A stretch of DNA of 52,508 bases, from the NCBI GenBank assembly GCA_001789205.1, contig MFYT01000028.1:8575-61082 (forward strand), written 5' to 3'. Shown piece after piece: positions 11,287 through 22,116 of the stretch. How positions within the stretch are numbered: position 1 is the stretch's first letter; each line of letters opens with the position of its first letter. The stretch is from Candidatus Raymondbacteria bacterium RIFOXYA2_FULL_49_16. Lineage in GTDB: Bacteria; Fibrobacterota; OXYB2-FULL-49-7; XYB2-FULL-49-35. A program made the position numbers and the translations under genes. The notes beneath the pieces are model-generated. The model made no database searches. It had not been told where the DNA came from and saw only the letters and a program-made list of their open reading frames with translations.

Positions 11287-12561
11287 CTAGCCCATTCTCA
11301 CTCGCACTGACTCGGCATGGTATTGCATGCCCTCTTTTTCCGCCATGGCAATGATCTTGCTTCCAGATTTTTTCAATGCCCTGTCCGAGTACTTGATGAC
11401 ACTCTGGCGTTTGACAAAATTGTACACACCCAGCGGCGAATAGAAGCGTGCAGTGCCGTTGGTAGGCAGCACATGGCTTGGCCCGGCAAAATAATCGCCA
11501 ATGGATTCGCAGGTGGCGTATCCGAGAAAGATTGCACCCGCGTGCCTGATTTGCTTCAGCGCAATTTCCGGCTGCTTCACCATGAGTTCTAGGTGCTCGG
11601 GGGCAATGGTATTTGCCACTGCACAGCATTCGGCAATATCCTTGAGGACACAGATAAGGCCATAGTTGTTGAGCACCCTGGTAATAACCGGATTACCAGA
11701 GGCTAATGTGTTGATTTCTTTCTGCACTGCCTTTGCCAATTTCATGCTCGGGGTCAGCAATACCGACGATTCGAGGCCTGTACCATGTTCGGCCTGCGAC
11801 AGGAGGTCGCGCGCCACATACGCGGCCGGCGCACCCGCATCGGCAATGACACAGACTTCACTGGGGCCAGCGATCATATCGATATCAACAATACCATAGA
11901 GTTGCTTCTTGGCCAGTGACACGTAGATATTTCCCGGTCCCACAATTTTATCGACCTTGGGAATGGAGCACGTGCCAAACGCAAAGGCCGCAATGGCCTG
12001 CGCACCGCCAATACGATAGACCTCGGTGACCCTCAGGGCCATAAGCGCATAGGCAATGGCCGGATCAAGCCCGCCCGAGACCGGCGGCGTGGCAACTAAA
12101 ATACGCCGAACACCCGCGATCTGCGCGGGAATAACGGTCATAAGAACAGTTGAAAAAAGCGGCGCCGAACCCGCGGGAATATAGATGGCAACGCTGTCCA
12201 CAGGCAGGACCCGCTGGCCAAGGACTACGCCGTCACCCATGTGCGCGGAAAAGCCGGCCTGCCGCTGGAGCAGATGATAGCGCTTGATATTGCGAATGGC
12301 CGCATTGATGGCGACCCTGATCCTGGGTTCGCACAGCATTGCGCGCGCTTTTAGGCCGGGAAAGGGCAGTCTGACCGTGCGGCCGTTTATGACTGTCCGG
12401 TCAAACTTCTTTGTGAGTCTGAAAAGCGCCTGGTCACCCTCCTCACACAGGGCGGCAATGATCGCGGCAACGGCCTTTTCCTGCTTCTCAAACCGAAGAT
12501 TTCCGCGCCCAAGTATTTTCGCCAGGGCCGCTGATCCCGTTCCTTTGGCAATTCTGATCAT
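11287..12561 (-). CDS. hisD: Histidinol dehydrogenase
   Basis: This 424-residue, full-length HisD catalyses the two NAD-dependent oxidations of histidinol to histidine, the last step of the pathway. Family signatures are DSVAIYIPAGSAPLFSTVLM, RIGGAQAIAAFAFGT, KIVGPGNIYVSLAK, the IDMIAGPSEV segment, LLSQAEHGTG and TIAPEHLEL with the catalytic Glu-His pair. The ATG at 12561 overlaps the cimA stop as ATGA, so translation is probably coupled to cimA. No other his gene is in the window, so hisD sits apart from the rest of its pathway inside a branched-chain operon. The conserved motifs are intact. Confidence 0.96.
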   Translation of the reverse strand: MIRIAKGTGSAALAKILGRGNLRFEKQEKAVAAIIAALCEEGDQALFRLTKKFDRTVINGRTVRLPFPGLKARAMLCEPRIRVAINAAIRNIKRYHLLQRQAGFSAHMGDGVVLGQRVLPVDSVAIYIPAGSAPLFSTVLMTVIPAQIAGVRRILVATPPVSGGLDPAIAYALMALRVTEVYRIGGAQAIAAFAFGTCSIPKVDKIVGPGNIYVSLAKKQLYGIVDIDMIAGPSEVCVIADAGAPAAYVARDLLSQAEHGTGLESSVLLTPSMKLAKAVQKEINTLASGNPVITRVLNNYGLICVLKDIAECCAVANTIAPEHLELMVKQPEIALKQIRHAGAIFLGYATCESIGDYFAGPSHVLPTNGTARFYSPLGVYNFVKRQSVIKYSDRALKKSGSKIIAMAEKEGMQYHAESVRVRMG

Positions 12562-14156
12562 TGAAATAATTTCATCTCCTTTGCGATTTTATACTCCAAC
12601 GAGTCGATGAGCGCGATCCACGACGCCTCGATGATATTGGACGAAACGCCTATGGTGCCCCAATACTCGCCGCCATCGGTCGAGGTGATGAGCACGCGCA
12701 CTTTGGCATTCGTACCATCACGTCCGTCGAGCACGCGCACCTTGTAATCAACCAGGCGCACCTGGGTAAGCTCCGGATAAAAGGTACTCAGGGCCTTGCG
12801 CAGGGCATGGTCAAGCGCCGATACCGGTCCATTGCCATCGGCCGCCGTGTGTTCGATACGTTCGCCCGCCTCCACTTTAACCGTGGCCTCGCTAAACAGT
12901 TTACCTTCGGTAAGTTCCTCGGTGATGCGGCACCCTAAAAACCGGAACTTGTCCGTAAAAAGGCCTAGTTCCCTCAGCATGAGCAACTTAAAAGACCCTT
13001 CCGCCGCCTCAAACTGGTACCCCTGGTGTTCCATGTCCTTGACACGGCTCAGCAGCCGCGCCACTGCCGGGTCTTTTTTCGAGACATCCGGTTTAAGCCT
13101 CTGGAGCTTCTCGACTACCGCCGATCCTCCGGACTGGTCTGAAAGAATATAAAGCCGGGTTGCGCCCACGAGATCCGGATTGACATGTTCAAACGACCGC
13201 GCTACCTTCATGACCCCGTCGATGTGCGCGCCGCCCTTGTGGGAAAAAGCGGCATCGCCCACATAGGGCTGCCGCTGGTCGTGGGCGATATTGGCCATCT
13301 CGGAGATAAAGACAGCCACGTCGTGAAGCTTTTTGAGCTGTTCGCCGGACACTACATTGAGGCCCATCTTTATCTTGAGATTGGGGATGATTGTCGAGAG
13401 ATTGGCATTGCCGCACCGCTCACCGAATCCGTTCATGACGCCCTGTATCTGCACCGCTCCCAGCGACGCGGCAATCATGGTATTTGCCTCGGCGCAGCCC
13501 GAATCATTGTGGGTGTGCACGCCCAGGGGCGTTTGCACCCGCTGCTGCACCGCTTCGAAGATTTTCTGAAAATCCATGGGAAGGCAGCCGCCATTGGTGT
13601 CGCAGAGGACAATGCAGTTTGCACCGCCCTTTTCCGCGGCCAAAAGCGTCTTGATCGCGTAATCGGGATTGTTCTTGTACCCGTCGAAGAAGTGTTCGGC
13701 GTCATAGATCACCTCTTCGCACTGCGTCTTGAGATAGGTCACGGTCTCGGAGATCATGCGAAGGTTCTCCTCAAGAGTGGTCTTGATGACTTCGAGCACA
13801 TGCAGGTCCCAACTTTTGCCGAAGATAGTGATGACCGGCGCCTTGCTTTCGACCAGGGCCTTGACAATGGCGTCGTCTTCGGGTTTTGCGCCCGGACGGC
13901 AAGTTGAACCAAAAGCCGCTATCCGGCTGTTCACCAGCTTTTCTTCGCGGATCTGCTCGAAAAACTTCACGTCAGTGGGACTGGTGGGGTTTGGCCACCC
14001 GCCTTCAATGTAGTGGACGCCCAATTCATCAAGTTTTCGAGCGATCTGGAGCTTGTCTGTAAGAGAGAGGGAGATACCACTGGCTTGATTGCCATCGCGC
14101 AGCGTTGTGTCGTATAGCGCGGGCGCAGCACCCAGCGAAAGTCGTGATTGTTGCAT
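12558..14156 (-). CDS. cimA: (R)-citramalate synthase
   Basis: This 532-residue protein condenses pyruvate and acetyl-CoA into citramalate, the threonine-independent entry to isoleucine. The N-terminal HMGL-like TIM barrel shows ALYDTTLRDGNQASGISLS, the metal-binding GVHTHNDSGCAEAN and NGFGERCGNANL. The C-terminal LeuA-type allosteric domain (about 390-532) probably senses isoleucine. The sequence pattern (YIEGGWPNPTSPTDVKFF, AFGSTCRPG) and length fit the CimA group of geobacteria and other anaerobes better than LeuA. The start at 14156 follows AAGGAA. It lies 13 bp after leuB and is coupled to hisD. Its products feed LeuC/LeuD and LeuB encoded just upstream in the same operon. Confidence 0.93.
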   Translation of the reverse strand: MQQSRLSLGAAPALYDTTLRDGNQASGISLSLTDKLQIARKLDELGVHYIEGGWPNPTSPTDVKFFEQIREEKLVNSRIAAFGSTCRPGAKPEDDAIVKALVESKAPVITIFGKSWDLHVLEVIKTTLEENLRMISETVTYLKTQCEEVIYDAEHFFDGYKNNPDYAIKTLLAAEKGGANCIVLCDTNGGCLPMDFQKIFEAVQQRVQTPLGVHTHNDSGCAEANTMIAASLGAVQIQGVMNGFGERCGNANLSTIIPNLKIKMGLNVVSGEQLKKLHDVAVFISEMANIAHDQRQPYVGDAAFSHKGGAHIDGVMKVARSFEHVNPDLVGATRLYILSDQSGGSAVVEKLQRLKPDVSKKDPAVARLLSRVKDMEHQGYQFEAAEGSFKLLMLRELGLFTDKFRFLGCRITEELTEGKLFSEATVKVEAGERIEHTAADGNGPVSALDHALRKALSTFYPELTQVRLVDYKVRVLDGRDGTNAKVRVLITSTDGGEYWGTIGVSSNIIEASWIALIDSLEYKIAKEMKLFQ

Positions 14157-14169
14157 GAGGTTCCTTTTC

Positions 14170-15231
14170 TTATTTTACGAGCGAGGCCACAAAATCACCG
14201 ACCTCAGACGTGGACATACCCATCCGGCCCGCGGCCAGACTCTTTATCCGGCCCGAGGCCAGGACGTCGCTTACGGCCTTGTCTATGGCGCGCGCCGCCT
14301 TTTCCTCACCCAGCGAATCGAGCATCATGCCCGCGGCGCTTATGGCCGCAAGCGGGTTTATTACGTTCTTGCCCGTATATTTGGGGGCGCTTCCGCCCAT
14401 GGGCTCAAACATCGAAACGCCTTCGGGATTGATATTGCCGCCCGCGGCAATGCCTAGCCCTCCCTGGATAATCGCGGCAAGGTCGGTAATAATGTCGCCG
14501 AAAAGGTTTTCGGTGACAATCACATCATACCATTCAGGCTGTTTGACAAACCACATGGTGCATGCGTCGACATGATTGTAGTCCTGCTTGATGTCGGGAT
14601 AGTTCGCGTCGCCCATCTCCTTGTGCACGCGCACCCAAAGGTCGCCGCAATGGGTAAGCACGTTGCATTTGTGCACAAGGGTGAGCATTTTCTTCGCGCT
14701 GTTGCGCTTGCGTGTAAGTTCGTAGGCGTACTTCATGCAGCGTTCGACCACAGGACGGCCATAGACCATGACCTGCGTGGCGATTTCCATGGGTGTGCCT
14801 TTCTGGACCACACCGCCTAGACCCGTGTAAATACCGCCGGTATTCTCGCGCACAACGACAAAATCGATGTCCTTTGGGCCTTTGTCCTTGAGTGGCGTTT
14901 CCACACCCGGATAAAGTTTCACAGGCCTGAGGTTAATATATTGGTCAAGGGCAAAACGCATTTTAAGAAGAATGCCGACTTCCAGTATGCCGGGTTTCAC
15001 GTCCGGATGGCCGATAGCGCCAAGATAAATAGTATCAAATTTTTTAATGTCCTCTATGGCCGCATCGGGCAGGGTCTCCCCTGTCTTCATGTACCGTTCG
15101 CCGCCGAAGTCGAAATTGACGGTCTCGTATTTGAAGCCGTATACTTTGGCCGCCGCATTCATGACTTTGAGACCTTCGTTGACGACTTCCGGACCGGTCC
15201 CGTCTCCGGGGAGTACTGCGATCTTGTGCAT
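14170..15231 (-). CDS. leuB: 3-isopropylmalate dehydrogenase
   Basis: This 353-residue enzyme oxidatively decarboxylates 3-isopropylmalate (leucine) and, in a citramalate pathway, 3-methylmalate (isoleucine). Family features are the N-terminal IAVLPGDGTGPEVV, VVRENTGGIYTG in the active site, the CDACTMWFV-like substrate region, and the NAD-binding EPMGGSAPKYTGKNVINPLA. The start at 15231 follows AGGAGA. It lies between leuD and cimA with short spacers. A broad substrate range is plausible because the operon pairs it with CimA and no LeuA, but that is inference. Confidence 0.95.
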   Translation of the reverse strand: MHKIAVLPGDGTGPEVVNEGLKVMNAAAKVYGFKYETVNFDFGGERYMKTGETLPDAAIEDIKKFDTIYLGAIGHPDVKPGILEVGILLKMRFALDQYINLRPVKLYPGVETPLKDKGPKDIDFVVVRENTGGIYTGLGGVVQKGTPMEIATQVMVYGRPVVERCMKYAYELTRKRNSAKKMLTLVHKCNVLTHCGDLWVRVHKEMGDANYPDIKQDYNHVDACTMWFVKQPEWYDVIVTENLFGDIITDLAAIIQGGLGIAAGGNINPEGVSMFEPMGGSAPKYTGKNVINPLAAISAAGMMLDSLGEEKAARAIDKAVSDVLASGRIKSLAAGRMGMSTSEVGDFVASLVK

Positions 15232-15277: not shown

Positions 15278-15799
15278 TTAATATCTCTTATCGGCGAACT
15301 CGACCCATCCTCCGGCTTCAACGAGCGAAGCGTCAAAGGGCGAAAGGAAAAAAGTTATTTCTTTTCGGCCATGCGAACTTGTGACGGTAATTCTCCTGGC
15401 GCTAAAATCAATGTCCATTACCGCATCATCCGCTTTCAGCGCGAAAACCCCTTCTATGTCTTCTTTTTTCAATTCAATGGCCAGCAGCCCGCAGTTGAAC
15501 ATGTTCTGCCTGAAAATACGGGCATAGCTCTCCGCAATGACCGCGGTTATGCCGTTGACCTCAAGGACCCACGGCGCATGTTCCCTGCTCGATCCGCACC
15601 CGAAATTCGCCCGGGTAATAATGACGCTTTTTCCCGCGCAATCAGCGGGCCCTGAAAAGCTGGGCAATTTCAGGTCTTCGAGAATATGGGGCTTCAACGC
15701 CTCCTTTGAGACCTCGGTCAGATATTTTGCTGGAATAATTTCATCCGTATTAATATCCGATCTGTCGAGAAACAACACACGTCCTGAAAAATTCTTCAT
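15278..15799 (-). CDS. leuD: 3-isopropylmalate dehydratase small subunit
   Basis: This 173-residue swivel-domain subunit forms the heterodimeric isomerase with LeuC that interconverts 2- and 3-isopropylmalate, and the citramalate equivalents. Visible motifs are DINTDEIIPAKYL near the N-terminus and the substrate-loop NFGCGSSREHAPW, followed by VIAESYARIFRQNMFNCGLL. The ATG at 15799, preceded by AAAGG, starts the conserved MKNFSGRV segment; the longer upstream frame only overlaps leuC out of frame. The gene follows leuC by 11 bp. Confidence 0.96.
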   Translation of the reverse strand: MKNFSGRVLFLDRSDINTDEIIPAKYLTEVSKEALKPHILEDLKLPSFSGPADCAGKSVIITRANFGCGSSREHAPWVLEVNGITAVIAESYARIFRQNMFNCGLLAIELKKEDIEGVFALKADDAVMDIDFSARRITVTSSHGRKEITFFLSPFDASLVEAGGWVEFADKRY

Positions 15800-15810
15800 A
15801 TATACCTTTC

Positions 15811-17094
15811 TTACAGATATTTCCTGGGATCGGTGATGACACCCGTAATGGCGGTCGCGGCCGCTGTTGCCGGACTCATGAGATGCACCATGCCTCCCTT
15901 GCCCATGCGTCCGAAAAAATTCCTGTTTGTTGTGCTCGCGCATACTTCGCCCGATGCGAGCACCCCGTTGCTCATGCCCAAACAGGCGCCGCACGTGGGA
16001 TTGGTGACGCACATTCCCGCTTTCATGAACGTATCGATATAGCCGCGCTTGAGCGCTGCCGCGAATACCGCAGGAGTGGCAGGTGACACAATACCCCGTA
16101 CTGTGGGAGCTATTTTTTTCCCTTTCAGCATTTTCGCGGCAATGGCCAGATCTTCGAGCCTGCCGTTTGTGCACGATCCCAGGTATACCTGATCGACTCG
16201 TGTTCCTTTAACCGCGCTCACCTCTTTGCTTTCGTCGGGCTTGTACCCGACCGTTACCCGAGGAGCCGATTTCGATACGTTGATGTCTAAGACTCGGACA
16301 TATTCGGCATCAGGATCTGAGTGCCATTTTTTAAAGGCCTGTACTGCAGCACCGGTGCTCGCATACTGTTTTTTTATAAAAGGCCAGAGATATTTTACCG
16401 TGACCAGATCGGGCATGCAAATCCCGCTGGTGCCGCCAGCCTCAATTGCCATATTGCACAGAGTCATGCGTGAATCCATGGTCATGGCCGCTACCACGGG
16501 TCCATGGAACTCAATGACGCAGTCCGTGGCCCCCTTGACCGTCAGTTTGTTTATAACTTCAAGGATAAGATCCTTTGCATAGACGCCTTTTCCCGGCTTG
16601 CCCGTAAGATTGACTCTGATTGTCTGAGGCTTTCGGAATGCACACACGCCTTTGAGTATGCCCACTTCGAGGTCAGTAGTGCCCACGCCAGCGGCAAACG
16701 CCCCAAAGGCGCCATGCGTGCAGGTATGTGAATCGCCCATGATGATCGTATATCCCGGACGCACAAAGCCCTTTTCAGGAAACAGGGCATGACAGACGCC
16801 GTTGCTGCCCACATCGAAGAAGTCCTTGATCTTGTGGCGGCGCGCCCAGTCGCGCATTATTTTTCCCTGCTCGGCTGTTTTGCTGTCCTTTGCCGGCGTT
16901 ACGTGGTCTATAACCGCCTTTATCCGGTTCCGGTCAAACACCCGGTCTTTACCGCGCCTGACAAGGTCGTTTATGGCAATGGGCGTGGTGATCTCGTGAC
17001 AGAATACCGCGTCCAGTTTCAGCACATAGGTCCCCGTAAATGGTTCATCCGTGCAATGCGCGTCGAATATTTTCTCAGTTATCGTCTTTCCCAT
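15811..17094 (-). CDS. leuC: 3-isopropylmalate dehydratase large subunit
   Basis: This 427-residue aconitase-family subunit carries the 4Fe-4S cluster. Its cysteines are visible in LGSCTNGR (near residue 307) and in NPTCGACLG (near 367 and 370). IIMGDSHTCTHGAFGAFAAGVGTTDLE is the substrate-binding region. The length matches the shorter anaerobe/archaeal LeuC type (about 420 aa) rather than the 470-residue enterobacterial form. A strong Shine-Dalgarno (AAGGAGAGG) precedes ATG 17094. It partners LeuD, encoded immediately downstream, and serves leucine and probably citramalate-route isoleucine synthesis. Confidence 0.96.
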   Translation of the reverse strand: MGKTITEKIFDAHCTDEPFTGTYVLKLDAVFCHEITTPIAINDLVRRGKDRVFDRNRIKAVIDHVTPAKDSKTAEQGKIMRDWARRHKIKDFFDVGSNGVCHALFPEKGFVRPGYTIIMGDSHTCTHGAFGAFAAGVGTTDLEVGILKGVCAFRKPQTIRVNLTGKPGKGVYAKDLILEVINKLTVKGATDCVIEFHGPVVAAMTMDSRMTLCNMAIEAGGTSGICMPDLVTVKYLWPFIKKQYASTGAAVQAFKKWHSDPDAEYVRVLDINVSKSAPRVTVGYKPDESKEVSAVKGTRVDQVYLGSCTNGRLEDLAIAAKMLKGKKIAPTVRGIVSPATPAVFAAALKRGYIDTFMKAGMCVTNPTCGACLGMSNGVLASGEVCASTTNRNFFGRMGKGGMVHLMSPATAAATAITGVITDPRKYL

Positions 17095-17109: not shown

Positions 17110-17592
17110 TTAGTTCTCCGAAACCGCGACCTTACCGCTCCTGACAAATTCGTGTATGCCGTAGGGCCGCAGCAGTTCTATAAACCGTTCAATCTTGTGT
17201 GAAGGCCCCGAAAGGTCAATGATGATGTGGTTCTTCGTGACATCTACGACCTTTGCCCGAAACACGTCGACCAGTTCAAATATCTCGGAACGAGCATTGC
17301 CCGCGTTTACCTTGATCAGAATGAATTCGCGCACAATATAGTTCCGTTTGTGCGATATGTCCTGGATTTTGATGGTATCAACCAGTTTGTTCAGCTGTTT
17401 GGCCACCTGCTCCACTTTTTCATCCGTGCCATGCACCACAAGATGGACCTTGTAGATGTCCGGGTTTTCAGTGGGTGCGGCAATGATGCTTTCGATGTTG
17501 TACCCACGCGCCGACAGAAGACCGGTGATACGGGCAAGCACGCCCACACGGTTTGCGACCGTGATTATTATGGTATGTTTGTCTTCCATCAT
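17110..17592 (-). CDS. ilvN: Acetolactate synthase regulatory (small) subunit
   Basis: This 160-residue subunit has an N-terminal ACT domain (HTIIITVANRVGVLARITGLLSARGYNIESI) and the C-terminal half typical of IlvN/IlvH (NYIVREFILIKV, ARSEIFELVDVFRAKVVDV, RFIELLRPYGIHEFVRSG). It binds the catalytic subunit and confers activation and valine feedback inhibition. The start at 17592 has a good AGGAGATGC site and overlaps the ilvB stop (ATGATG at 17587-17592), implying coupled, near-stoichiometric translation. Full length; no oddities. Confidence 0.97.
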   Translation of the reverse strand: MMEDKHTIIITVANRVGVLARITGLLSARGYNIESIIAAPTENPDIYKVHLVVHGTDEKVEQVAKQLNKLVDTIKIQDISHKRNYIVREFILIKVNAGNARSEIFELVDVFRAKVVDVTKNHIIIDLSGPSHKIERFIELLRPYGIHEFVRSGKVAVSEN

Positions 17593-19322
17593 GCATCTCC
17601 TGTTATTATTTCGTTAATCGACTTTCCGGCCGGCACCATGGGATAGACGTTTTCCATGGACTTGACCACGAATTCCATGAGCACCGGCCCCTTGGTCTTA
17701 AACCCTTGTTTGAGCACCTTGTCCACATCAGAGGGTTTCTCCGCCCGCAGACCCAGGAGCCCGTTGGCCTCGGCAACTTTGACAAAATCGGGCCAATAGA
17801 CGCCCTTGCATTTTTTTCCCGGCCCTTTGCATTGCGGCGGACACTGGGGTCCCTGCCTCAGACAGGTACTGGCATAGTTCTCTTTCCAGAAAAGCTGCTG
17901 CCACTGACGCACCATGCCAAGGTATCCATTGTTGAGCACCACGATCTTGACCGGAATTCTGTTTACCGCGCAGGTGGCAAGCTCCTGTATGTTCATCTGA
18001 ATGCTGCCGTCTCCAGAAATATCGATGACCTGCCGCTTGGGAAACGCCATGGCCGCTCCCATAGCAGCCGGCAGGCCGAACCCCATGGTGCCAAGGCCGC
18101 CTGAACTCAGGAACGACCGCGGCTGCCGGTGTCTCAGAAAAAGAGCGCTCCACATCTGGTGCTGGCCAACGTCAGTGACCAGAATAGCATCGTCTTTCAT
18201 GAGATGGCTTATACGGTCGATCACGTATTGGGGCACAATGGGTCCGTCTTTCTCCTGTTTGTAAGCCAGCGGGTGCTTGGTCTTCCATTCGTTGACCGTC
18301 TTGTTCCATTCATCGGGCTTGCGGGCTGCGACCTTCTGAATGAGTTCAGCAAGCACATTCTTTGCATCACCCACCACCGGAATGTCGGTCTTCACGTTCT
18401 TGCTTATCTCGGCAGGGTCGATGTCCACATGGGCCACGATGGCCTGTTTGGCAAAGGTTTGCAAATTGCCCGTGACCCGGTCGTCGAAACGCGTGCCCAC
18501 AGCAACCAGAAGGTCGCACTGCATGAGCGCGTAGTTCGCGGCAACGCGGCCATGCATTCCCGGCATGCCCAGAAAGAGCTGATGGTCTGCAGGAACGCTG
18601 CCCAGACCCATAAGCGTAATGACAACAGGGATGTTCGTCTTGTTGATAAACTTGACCAGTTCGGGGCTCGCGTTTGAGCTGATGATGCCGCCGCCTGTAT
18701 ACAGCAATGGCCTCTTGGCATTGGCAATGGCATGGGCAAGCCGTTCGATCTGGCGCGCATTTCCCTTGAGCGTGGGTTTGTAACCTACCAAGTCAACGGT
18801 CTTTGGGTACATGTAGTTCTTCAGCGACGCGTTGATGATGTCAGCCGGAATGTCGAGCGAGACCGGCCCAGGCCTGCCTGTGCTGGCGATATGGAACGCC
18901 TCTTTGATGATGCGCGGCAGTTCCTCAATGTTCTGCACCAGATAGTTGTGCTTGCAGATTGAACGGGTGAGTCCCACCACGTCCGCTTCCTGGAACGCAT
19001 CGGTCCCAATGACCGGGCTGCGCACCTGTCCTGAAATGACCACTATGGGTATTGAGTCGAGTTGGGCGTTCGCGATGCCCGTGACGGTGTTGGTCGCGCC
19101 CGGACCCGAAGTGACCAGGCAGACGCCCACCTTGCCTGTGGCGCGCGCATAGCCATCGGCGGCGTGCGTCGCACCCTGTTCGTGGCGCGTGAGGATAAAC
19201 CTGATCTCCCTGGTGCGGTTGAGCACATCGAAAATGGGGATGACTACGCCGCCCGGATACCCGAACATAACGTCGACCCCTTCCTTTTTCAATGCATCGA
19301 TGAGTATTTCTGCGCCTGTCAT
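17589..19322 (-). CDS. ilvB: Acetolactate synthase catalytic (large) subunit with a four-cysteine insertion
   Basis: This 577-residue ThDP enzyme makes acetolactate or acetohydroxybutyrate, the first common step of valine and isoleucine synthesis. Domain features are MFGYPGGVVIPIFD and RHEQGATHAADGYARATG with the catalytic Glu of the N-terminal PYR domain, GTRFDDRVTGN in the central FAD domain, and the ThDP/Mg motif GDGSIQMN through NNGYLGMVRQWQ in the PP domain. I chose ATG 19322 because of AAAGGAAT upstream and the canonical MTGAEILIDALKKEGVD start; the longer frame overlaps ilvD out of frame. Directly after the NNGYLGMVRQWQQLFW motif an extra loop carries Cys487, Cys494, Cys498 and Cys505 (C-X6-C-X3-C-X6-C), absent from the E. 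coli enzymes. It follows ilvD by 34 bp and is coupled to ilvN. Confidence 0.96.
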   Translation of the reverse strand: MTGAEILIDALKKEGVDVMFGYPGGVVIPIFDVLNRTREIRFILTRHEQGATHAADGYARATGKVGVCLVTSGPGATNTVTGIANAQLDSIPIVVISGQVRSPVIGTDAFQEADVVGLTRSICKHNYLVQNIEELPRIIKEAFHIASTGRPGPVSLDIPADIINASLKNYMYPKTVDLVGYKPTLKGNARQIERLAHAIANAKRPLLYTGGGIISSNASPELVKFINKTNIPVVITLMGLGSVPADHQLFLGMPGMHGRVAANYALMQCDLLVAVGTRFDDRVTGNLQTFAKQAIVAHVDIDPAEISKNVKTDIPVVGDAKNVLAELIQKVAARKPDEWNKTVNEWKTKHPLAYKQEKDGPIVPQYVIDRISHLMKDDAILVTDVGQHQMWSALFLRHRQPRSFLSSGGLGTMGFGLPAAMGAAMAFPKRQVIDISGDGSIQMNIQELATCAVNRIPVKIVVLNNGYLGMVRQWQQLFWKENYASTCLRQGPQCPPQCKGPGKKCKGVYWPDFVKVAEANGLLGLRAEKPSDVDKVLKQGFKTKGPVLMEFVVKSMENVYPMVPAGKSINEIITGDA

Positions 19323-19356: not shown

Positions 19357-21018
19357 CTATTCCAGGACCGCACCCTGGCTTGCTGATCCCACGAGCCGTG
19401 CATACCGGCCTAGCGCACCGTAGTCTACCCGCGGCTTGCGCGGCTTCCACGACTTTGCGCGCTTTTTCAGCTCTGCTGCAGATACTCTTACTTCTATTCT
19501 CCCCTTGGGAATATCGATGAAAATCCTGTCTCCTTTTTTCACAAGCGCAATGGGGCCGCCGGTTGCAGCTTCGGGTGCTATGTGGCCAATGCAAGCGCCA
19601 CGCGTGCCGCCGGAAAACCTGCCATCGGTAATGAGCGCCACGCTTTCGCCAAGCCCCCGGCCCATGATATAGGACGTAGGAGAGAGCATTTCCTGCATGC
19701 CCGGTCCCCCGCGCGGACCTTCGTACCGTATGACCACCACGTCTCCTGACTTTACTTTGCCGGAGAGTATTCCTTCGCACGCCTCTTCCTGGCTTTCAAA
19801 AATGACCGCGGGCCCCTCGAAGACCCGCATAGCGGGAGCAACACCGGCAAATTTGACCACGCTGCCTTCGGGCGCAAGGTTGCCGTAGAGCACCGCAAGA
19901 CCACCTGCCTGTGAATAGGCCTTTTCCACCGTATGAATGACCTCGCCATCAGCATCGGGCGCTGCTTTGATATTTTCCCCCAATGTTTTTCCCGTGACCG
20001 TGTCACACGACAGATCAAGAAAACCGTGTTTTCCTATCTCCTTGAGTATGGCGCTGATGCCGCCAACGCGGTCCACGTCTTCGATGTGCCAGTGGCTCGA
20101 TGGCGCGACCTTGCAGATATTCGGTGTCTTTTTGCTCAGGCCATCGATTCTCTTTAGACTATAGGCAAGGCCTGCCTCTTTGGCAATGGCAAGCGTATGC
20201 AGCACAGTATTTGACGAACCGCCCATGGCCATATCAAGGACAATAGCATTGTCCAAAGACTTTTTCGTTATGATGTCACGAGGCTTTATGTCTTCTTTCA
20301 CCAGCTGCACTATGCGCTGGGCAGCGGTCTGGTACAGAACCTTTCTTCGTTCATCGGTTGCCAGAACCGTTCCATTGCCAGGCAGGGCAATGCCAATGGC
20401 CTCGCACAGACAATTCATTGAGTTTGCCGTGTACATACCCGCGCAACTGCCGCACCCGGGACAGGCAAAGTCTTCTATGGCTTTGAGCTCCTGTTCGCTG
20501 ATCTTCTTTTCCGTGAGCTGGGCAACACCCTCGAACACTGCGGTAAGATCGAGCACCCGGCCGTCAGCACCCTTTCCCGCGCGCATGGGCCCGCCAGAGA
20601 CAAAAATTGTGGGGATATTGACCCTGACTGCGGCCATAATCATACCCGGAACAATTTTATCGCAGTTGGGAATACAGACCATGCCGTCGAAACAGTGGGC
20701 ACGGAGCATGGTTTCAACCGCGTCGGCAATGACTTCGCGCGACTGGAGCGAATAGCGCATGCCCATGTGGCCCATGGCAATGCCGTCGTCGACCGCGATG
20801 GTGTTGAAAATAAAAGGCATGCCACCGGCCTGATATACAGCTTCTTTGACCATTTGGCCAACTTTGTCGAGGTGTACGTGGCCGGGAACTATGTCGGTAT
20901 ATGAATTCGCGATGGCAATGAAAGGCCGGTTCATGTCCTCATCTTTTACGCCGCACGCTTTCAGGAGCGAACGATGGGGCGCACGTTCAAATCCTTTTTT
21001 AATGGTATCGCTTCTCAT
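19357..21018 (-). CDS. ilvD: Dihydroxy-acid dehydratase
   Basis: This 553-residue Fe-S enzyme dehydrates dihydroxyisovalerate or dihydroxymethylvalerate, the third common step of branched-chain synthesis. Cluster and active-site motifs are [29 protein letters not shown] and [34 protein letters not shown] is also conserved. The ATG at 21018 follows AAGGGAAGAG and gives the canonical [23 protein letters not shown] start. It is the first structural gene of the ilv-leu-cimA-hisD directon and sits directly behind an attenuator leader, so its expression should respond to charged branched-chain tRNAs. Full length and intact. Confidence 0.97.
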
Positions 21019-21083: not shown

Positions 21084-21126
21084 AAAACAATAAACCCCCC
21101 TCCGCTGGTGCGGAAGGGGGTTTATT
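21084..21126 (-). terminator. Attenuator terminator of the ilv-leu operon
   Basis: On the minus-strand RNA, AATAAACCCCCTTCCGC pairs with GCGGAGGGGGGTTTATT (21089-21126), a 17-bp stem with one T-G pair and a 4-base loop. TTTATTGTTTT follows. It stands about 65 bp before the ilvD start and about 30 bases after the leader-peptide stop. The plus-strand reading is also terminator-like but no plus-strand gene leads into it. Confidence 0.88.
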
Positions 21127-21154
21127 TTTCTTTTGGTATTTGGGAACTAAACCC
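21118..21154 (-). promoter_or_regulatory. Antiterminator pairing in the ilv leader
   Basis: GGGTTTA (21148-21154), which begins in the last base of the leader stop codon, is fully complementary to TAAACCC (21118-21124), the 5' arm of the terminator. A further leader element, CTCTCG (21210-21215, inside the Leu/Val codons), pairs with CGAGAG (21159-21164) next to the antiterminator strand. A ribosome stalled on the Ile/Leu/Val codons would mask CTCTCG and free the antiterminator strand. Confidence 0.65.
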
Positions 21155-21234
21155 TACCCTCTCGCACCTCTACATTGGGGTACAATAAGTACTACTGTAA
21201 TAAGCGATACGAGAGAATGGATTCTGTATTTCAT
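21154..21234 (-). CDS. Branched-chain leader peptide of the ilv operon attenuator
   Basis: This 26-residue reading frame is too short for standard gene calling. It starts MKYRIHS, and residues 7-18 read SLVSLITVVLIV. Ten of the fourteen residues 5-18 are Ile, Leu or Val. It ends 28 bases before the terminator hairpin. Its role would be to sense charging of tRNA-Ile, -Leu and -Val by ribosome stalling. It has no evident Shine-Dalgarno and lies only about 6 bases after the predicted transcription start, so translation may be near-leaderless. The position between a strong promoter and an attenuator terminator upstream of ilvD makes chance occurrence unlikely. Confidence 0.82.
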   Translation of the reverse strand: MKYRIHSLVSLITVVLIVPQCRGARG

Positions 21235-21246
21235 AATCTACATAAT

Positions 21247-21275
21247 AAGATAAACAAAATTTTTATAAATGTCAA
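21247..21275 (-). promoter_or_regulatory. Sigma70-type promoter of the ilv-leu operon
   Basis: On the minus strand a perfect -35 TTGACA (21270-21275), a 17-base spacer and -10 TATCTT (21247-21252, four of six matches) lie in an AT-rich stretch. The predicted start is near 21240, just before the leader peptide ATG. Confidence 0.75.
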
Positions 21276-21450: not shown

Positions 21451-22116
21451 ATGGACCAAATAAAACCGCACAAAAAACTGGGGGCTGTTCTCTTTGACCT
21501 TGATGGTGTTCTGGTTGATACTGCGAAATGCCATTTCCTGGCATGGAAAAAAATAGCCGAACAACTCTCCATCACCATTGATGAGAAAGTGAATGAAAAG
21601 CTGAAAGGCGTTGACCGCCGCGATTCATTCCTGATAATTACAAGAGGCCGCGCCTTTTCAGAGCCTGAAATACACCAGTATTGCACATTGAAAAATGGCT
21701 ACTTTCTCGAATTCATTTCGCGTCTGACTGCAGAAGACGTATTACCGGGAGTCCGCCCCCTTATCAAATCGCTCGATACCCAAGGAATAAAGAAAGCTGT
21801 CTGCTCGGCAAGCAAGAACGCACGGACCATTCTGGCAAATACCGGGCTGATAAAATATTTTGATATTGTGATAGACGGCCATGCTATTGAAAGGGGGAAG
21901 CCCGATCCCCAAGTTTTTCTTGCGGCTGCGCGTGCCTTGGCCGTTAATCCTGCAACGTGTATTGTCATCGAAGATGCGCAGGCGGGTATTGAAGCCGCCC
22001 GTCGCGCGGGCATGAAGGCCGTTGGCGTGGGTGAACGCCATGTGCTGGCGCACGCTGATACGGTTATAAAAACGCTGGTTGAACTTTCCGTAAAGACGCT
22101 TCAGTCGCTGCTCTGA
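21451..22116 (+). CDS. pgmB: Beta-phosphoglucomutase (HAD superfamily)
   Basis: This 221-residue HAD phosphotransferase closely fits beta-PGM, which interconverts beta-glucose 1-phosphate and glucose 6-phosphate after maltose or trehalose phosphorolysis. HAD motif I is LFDLDGVLVDT (nucleophile Asp and acid-base Asp). The cap segment CHFLAWKKIA and KLKGVDRRDS matches the beta-PGM substrate-sensing cap. Motif II is SASKN, the motif III Lys is in GKPDPQVF, and motif IV is IEDAQAGIEAARRAG. The start at 21451 lacks a clear Shine-Dalgarno. It is a lone plus-strand gene with no neighbouring glycoside phosphorylase, so the physiological sugar source is unknown. A generic HAD phosphatase is the alternative but less likely. 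Confidence 0.88.
   Translation: MDQIKPHKKLGAVLFDLDGVLVDTAKCHFLAWKKIAEQLSITIDEKVNEKLKGVDRRDSFLIITRGRAFSEPEIHQYCTLKNGYFLEFISRLTAEDVLPGVRPLIKSLDTQGIKKAVCSASKNARTILANTGLIKYFDIVIDGHAIERGKPDPQVFLAAARALAVNPATCIVIEDAQAGIEAARRAGMKAVGVGERHVLAHADTVIKTLVELSVKTLQSLL

Follow-up and report, generated by a model that had tools for sequence, protein, structure and literature searches.

The region upstream of ilvD in the window (the whole 52,508-nucleotide stretch of DNA that we analysed) raises the question of how a long branched-chain amino acid operon is controlled. An earlier note, made from the letters alone, had proposed a complete attenuator controlling an ilv-leu-cimA-hisD operon, and NCBIfam models indeed identified eight closely spaced genes on the minus strand, where all features described below lie unless stated otherwise. 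The first gene is ilvD (dihydroxy-acid dehydratase; 19357–21018, TIGR00110), followed by ilvB and ilvN for the large and small subunits of acetolactate synthase (17589–19322, TIGR00118, and 17110–17592, TIGR00119). Next are genes for a leuC-type isopropylmalate/citraconate dehydratase large subunit (15811–17094) and a leuD-type small subunit (15278–15799), then leuB (3-isopropylmalate dehydrogenase; 14170–15231), cimA ((R)-citramalate synthase; 12558–14156, TIGR00977, well above cutoff) and hisD (histidinol dehydrogenase; 11287–12561), giving the order ilvD-ilvB-ilvN-leuC-leuD-leuB-cimA-hisD. The gap between ilvN and leuC leaves no room for ilvC. The last gene identified in this branched-chain operon, hisD, belongs to the histidine pathway and overlaps cimA by 4 nt. 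In G001, a genome of the same order, the operon reads ilvD-ilvB-ilvN, a 1.17 kb gap with space for ilvC, and leuC-leuD-leuB-cimA-hisD. Because hisD follows cimA there as well, we regard it as part of the operon in this order.

A promoter scan located the sigma-70-like promoter that had been claimed for this operon, TTGACA-N17-TATCTT, at 21275–21247, with the -35 hexamer TTGACA at 21270–21275 and the -10 hexamer TATCTT at 21247–21252, separated by a 17-nt spacer. From the position of the -10, the transcript is predicted to start at approximately 21241–21239. Thus, the leader would have a 5' UTR of only ∼5–7 nt before its ATG, and use of an overlapping weaker -10 (TATTAT, 21247–21242) would render the mRNA leaderless. 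The leader ORF itself, MKYRIHSLVSLITVVLIVPQCRGARG, has 26 codons (21154–21234; ATG at 21234, stop TAG at 21156–21154) and lacks a Shine-Dalgarno sequence. Its control block, codons 5–18 (21181–21222), carries Ile, Leu or Val at 10 of 14 positions, as the earlier note had stated, and it is the only ORF of 10–60 amino acids with such a 10/14 block on either strand of the 52.5-kb window. Most related leaders are preceded by TTGACA-N17-TAAAAT-like promoters. The distance from the -10 to the ATG in relatives is mostly ∼22–35 nt, and a Shine-Dalgarno sequence is likewise mostly absent.

Between the leader and ilvD, and on the same strand as both, lies an intrinsic terminator hairpin (21089–21126) of 17 bp with the loop ACCA and a predicted stability of -30.1 kcal/mol. 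Its arms, 21126–21110 and 21105–21089, contain one G-T among the 17 bp, in agreement with the terminator originally described. On its 3' side is a U-rich tract, TTTATTGTTTT (21084–21094), whose run of U is interrupted (UUUAUUGUUUU) and where an attenuated transcript is predicted to end. The adjacent upstream gene (21451–22116) is on the opposite strand; since it is divergent, the hairpin is not the terminator of any upstream gene. RNA folding gave two alternative pairings that involve the leader. Strand 1, the 5' arm of a protector hairpin (21204–21224), pairs with strand 2 (21148–21168, GGTGCGAGAGGGTAGGGTTTA), which holds the stop codon; the core of this pairing is the CTCTCG at 21215–21210 against CGAGAG that had been noted as a competing pairing. 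Strand 2 can alternatively pair with strand 3 (21107–21124, TAAACCCCCTTCCGCACC), which otherwise pairs with strand 4 of the terminator. While the antiterminator pairing GGGTTTA/TAAACCC held up, its extent of 7 bp did not: the antiterminator comprises 18 bp (21168–21148 with 21124–21107), in which the blocks GGTGCG, GAGGG and GGGTTTA of strand 2 are each paired with strand 3. The paired region takes in the terminator loop, and its predicted stability is about -26 to -28 kcal/mol. The antiterminator overlaps the end of the leader and its stop codon, and it excludes the terminator. Folding gave a z of -7.1, with 0 of 200 shuffles as stable.

ILV-rich ORFs are common in AT-rich DNA, and one might lie beside an unrelated hairpin by chance. 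When the 400 nt preceding ilvD were dinucleotide-shuffled 1500 times, an ORF with 8/14 ILV codons indeed appeared in 230 of the shuffles, and one with 10/14 in 12. However, an ORF followed by a terminator appeared in only 2 of the 1500 shuffles even at the looser 8/14 threshold, and the ilvD leader region is the sole such composite on either strand of the window. Together with the conservation and co-varying pairings described below, which contradict a chance origin, these counts leave it a probability close to nil.

The arrangement very probably works by ribosome-mediated transcription attenuation of the classical type, with charged tRNA-Ile, tRNA-Leu and tRNA-Val as the signals sensed, and the downstream genes ilvD, ilvB, ilvN, leuCDB and cimA make the amino acids concerned. 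We infer that RNA polymerase starts just upstream of the leader ORF and that a ribosome translates the leader. When Ile-, Leu- and Val-tRNAs are scarce, the ribosome would stall within codons 5–18 and cover strand 1, the 18-bp 2:3 antiterminator would form in place of the terminator, and read-through in vivo would allow transcription of ilvD-ilvB-ilvN-leuCDB-cimA-hisD. When these tRNAs are plentiful, the ribosome would reach the UAG inside strand 2 and cover that strand, so that strands 3 and 4 could pair as the terminator and the transcript would end near 21084. On an untranslated leader, strands 1 and 2 could pair first, resulting in termination by default.

To relate ribosome position to RNA structure, we used a masking model that hides the RNA as far as 13 nt past the A-site codon's first base. 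All 18 antiterminator pairs are left with the A-site at any codon through Val18, the last control codon, and 16 are left at codon 19. With the A-site at codons 22–23 this falls to 7, and from codon 24 to the stop no pairs are left; once masking removes all of them, formation of the terminator is still possible. In this model the position of the ribosome selects between the two structures, which agrees with classical attenuation geometry. At full equilibrium the terminator is always the winner, indicating that the choice must fall during RNA synthesis, as in known attenuators. For untranslated RNA, before strand 4 exists, the equilibrium fold prefers 2:3 over 1:2, and termination by default in the absence of translation therefore depends on 1:2 forming first.

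The title of the earlier note called this a translational attenuator, in which the leader would govern ribosome access to the ilvD start and not termination. Such a reading gains something from the related ilvD leaders of Calditrichota and some other groups, which lack terminators, and from the ilvD start region being half paired on average (mean 0.56) in the full-length fold. However, the ilvD Shine-Dalgarno region lies ∼60 nt past the terminator and is paired with neither strand 2 nor strand 3 in the predicted fold, the ilvD start region as a whole pairs with none of strands 2–4, and a 17-bp intrinsic terminator with a U tract is present here, as are terminators in the closest relatives. Because of the intrinsic terminator, we assign the locus to transcription attenuation, and control at the ilvD start is extremely unlikely.

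The earlier note had proposed asking whether relatives with ilvD conserve the leader frame and hairpins. Within the class, the comparison consisted of one other genome, G001, which carries the leader MNYSVHLSLIIGILVITPYKAEG and a terminator ahead of ilvD; most of the evidence for co-variation is thus drawn from another phylum. The closest IlvDs outside the class, up to 75% identical to that of the window, belong to this second phylum, which was reached through JAHJGX010000084.1. There, 25 analysed loci have an ILV-rich leader of 17–35 codons and a terminator before ilvD. Across 29 leader/terminator sets (the window, G001 and 27 from the second phylum), the spacing from the stop to the terminator is 20–30 nt in 28; in the window, 27 nt separate the end of the leader ORF from the hairpin. 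The relatives that keep an ilvD-headed operon keep both the leader frame and the hairpin pairings, and the pairings change together.

Two of the 25 second-phylum loci have tandem pairs of leader and terminator units: in L120/L182 (G100) and L128 (G139), two ILV leader-plus-terminator units lie within the 400 nt upstream of one ilvD. Each unit of G100 has its own antiterminator, while in the second unit of G139 the terminator begins 1 nt past the stop and no clear antiterminator is seen. Additionally, an Anaerolineae MAG (L045) carries the leader MSYTSLALISLNLISLILLIGIKEIPRVWVQAKVLSK and a terminator upstream of ilvD (3510), in an operon of ilvD-ilvB-ilvN plus leuCD and cimA-like genes.

Pairing co-variation was measured by testing each locus's own duplex against swapped duplexes. 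Column-wise pair counts were rejected, as a MAFFT alignment of 20 leader-terminator regions put the hairpin arms out of register. For strands 2 and 3, own duplexes had a mean of -17.1 kcal/mol compared to -13.4 kcal/mol for swapped ones (p = 5e-5), and p = 5e-5 was obtained again with 13 dissimilar loci. The cores of these strands differ among loci, for example GAAGGGG, GAAGAGGC, CGAAAGGG, GGGGGGAGC and AGGGU. Strands 1 and 2 behaved in the same direction, less strongly (p = 1.5e-4). Among 28 leaders, the ILV fraction was 0.49 in the leader frame, whereas the other two frames had 0.24 and 0.09 and base shuffles gave 0.25. ILV codons were specific to the frame in 28/28 leaders, and stops were frequent in the other frames. 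Between closely related leaders, 64 of 81 changes preserved ILV codons compared to 53.8 expected, an excess that is weak and comes from pairs that are not independent. At the level of sequence, then, the parts of the attenuator, their order and spacing and their exclusive pairings are established, and strands 2 and 3 are shown to be conserved and to co-vary along with the leader frame.

These data also bear on whether the terminator is set by some other sensor, such as a riboswitch, a T-box or an RNA-binding protein, with the ILV-rich ORF being incidental. Intrinsic terminators in 5' UTRs frequently serve such sensors, and ilv operons elsewhere are under T-box or ppGpp riboswitch control. Nevertheless, no Rfam family matched the window or 13 related loci at gathering level, and neither a T-box nor a ppGpp riboswitch was found at that level or in a permissive covariance-model scan. 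The in-frame ILV codons of 28/28 leaders, the fixed stop-to-terminator spacing and the overlap of the antiterminator with the leader end and stop codon likewise speak for a translated leader as the sensor, making a different one very unlikely.

Judging by the groups to which its relatives belong, the window's phylum is tentatively Fibrobacterota. No leader-terminator combination was found at the 27 ilvD loci examined from other classes of this phylum, where IlvD is ∼41–52% identical to that of the window, while in one IlvD clade of the second, uncultured phylum almost every member has the attenuator. In the IlvD tree, the window and G001 fall inside a fully supported clade of 26 rows, the rest of which is the second phylum. 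The negative result for the 27 relatives and this grouping of IlvD suggest that the regulated operon head may have moved between phyla. Furthermore, in G136 of the second phylum, ilvB and ilvN are 74% and 79% identical to those of the window, whereas cimA and leuC are only ∼50% and ∼46% identical; with the IlvD clade, this difference suggests that the attenuator moved jointly with the ilvD-ilvB-ilvN head. In AU tests, a tree placing the window IlvD and the remaining IlvDs of its phylum in a single clade was not rejected (p = 0.15), and a tree with the second phylum's attenuated IlvDs as a clade without the window fit equally well (p = 0.65), so neither horizontal transfer nor its direction is proven. 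Judged from sequence comparison, the regulated operon head may have been transferred between phyla, with vertical descent not rejected.

Long ILV leaders without an intrinsic terminator were found upstream of ilvD in Calditrichota (L145–L159), one Ignavibacteriae (L047), one CSSED10-310 (L039) and part of the second phylum (L139–L141, L165–L178 and L184). These leaders mostly have 40–60 codons and end in an ILV block 108–163 nt before ilvD; DILLLIGIIIISLIIIIG and SLIIDLLILVIIGLAVQVA, each directly before the stop, are examples of such ends. The alternative, co-varying pairings of Calditrichota involve CUCGGGAUUA within the ILV block, AAUCCCGAG past the stop and, farther along, CUCGGGAUUGAC. 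For the Calditrichota-type set, own-versus-swapped tests of the pairings around the stop gave p = 5e-5 for 2:3 and p = 1e-4 for 1:2, and in the terminator-less set of the second phylum only 2:3 co-varies. We tentatively propose, with somewhat less than even confidence, that the leader, switch and ilvD-ilvB-ilvN head are a module that moved between phyla as a unit, and that the terminator-less form of Calditrichota and other groups shares the ILV-leader logic through an undescribed mechanism. The terminator-less leaders point to a separate question of mechanism, and the system allows a test of whether attenuators travel with operons or arise anew.

How does this attenuator compare with known systems? 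Leader-peptide attenuators control ilvGMEDA and ilvBN in Enterobacteriaceae, and the window shares their ILV-rich leader, their mutually exclusive protector, antiterminator and terminator, and a terminator before the first ilv gene. It differs from them in lineage, in lacking a Shine-Dalgarno sequence, in its very short predicted 5' UTR and in heading ilvD-ilvBN-leuCDB-cimA-hisD, and it has no Rfam match. Control of ilv genes by leader peptides has been established for Enterobacteriaceae and for Corynebacterium, and for further Actinobacteria it is predicted (PMC10272879, PMC11857589, PMC1262725), with the E. coli precedent cited in PMC10272879. According to a terminator survey of 2010, leader-peptide systems had, to its authors' knowledge, been demonstrated in no groups other than Proteobacteria and Actinobacteria, to which the survey added Firmicutes (PMC2965389). 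In the literature covered, which was partial, we found no description of such attenuators for the window's lineage or the second phylum, though Lopatovskaya et al. 2010 (doi 10.1134/S0026893310010164), the broadest of the surveys cited, could cover related phyla. The locus had been called little described, and this agrees; it is no isolated curiosity, as leaders of this kind, placed before ilvD operons that contain cimA, are widespread in uncultured groups.

An ILV-rich uORF, a terminator and an alternative antiterminator are also shared with the ilvB-II motif or ilvBNC attenuator of Corynebacterium (PMC10272879, PMC11857589) and with the ilvB leaders of Actinobacteria (PMC1262725), but the gene order there is ilvBNC, and lineage and RNA sequence differ. 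According to the title of Morbach et al. 2000, as PMC10272879 cites it, the C. glutamicum leader is formed without a ribosome binding site. The ILV-codon ORFs of Actinobacteria overlap the terminator hairpin (PMC1262725), whereas the window's ORF ends before it. Structured RNAs also precede ilv genes in the Leptospira ilvB (WRC-14-1) and Veillonella ilvD (WRC-18-2) motifs (PMC8632094), which are restricted to those genera and were compared with the window by their descriptions, and the ilvB-OMG and ilvB motifs of other lineages seemingly carry uORFs (PMC10272879). Thus, the kind of attenuation is known; new, as far as we found, are the lineage in which it occurs and how often uncultured relatives have it. 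These loci provide dozens of comparative examples of an attenuator without an Rfam model, and they extend branched-chain attenuation, whose documented cases come chiefly from Proteobacteria, Actinobacteria and some Firmicutes, to bacteria that are largely known through metagenomes.
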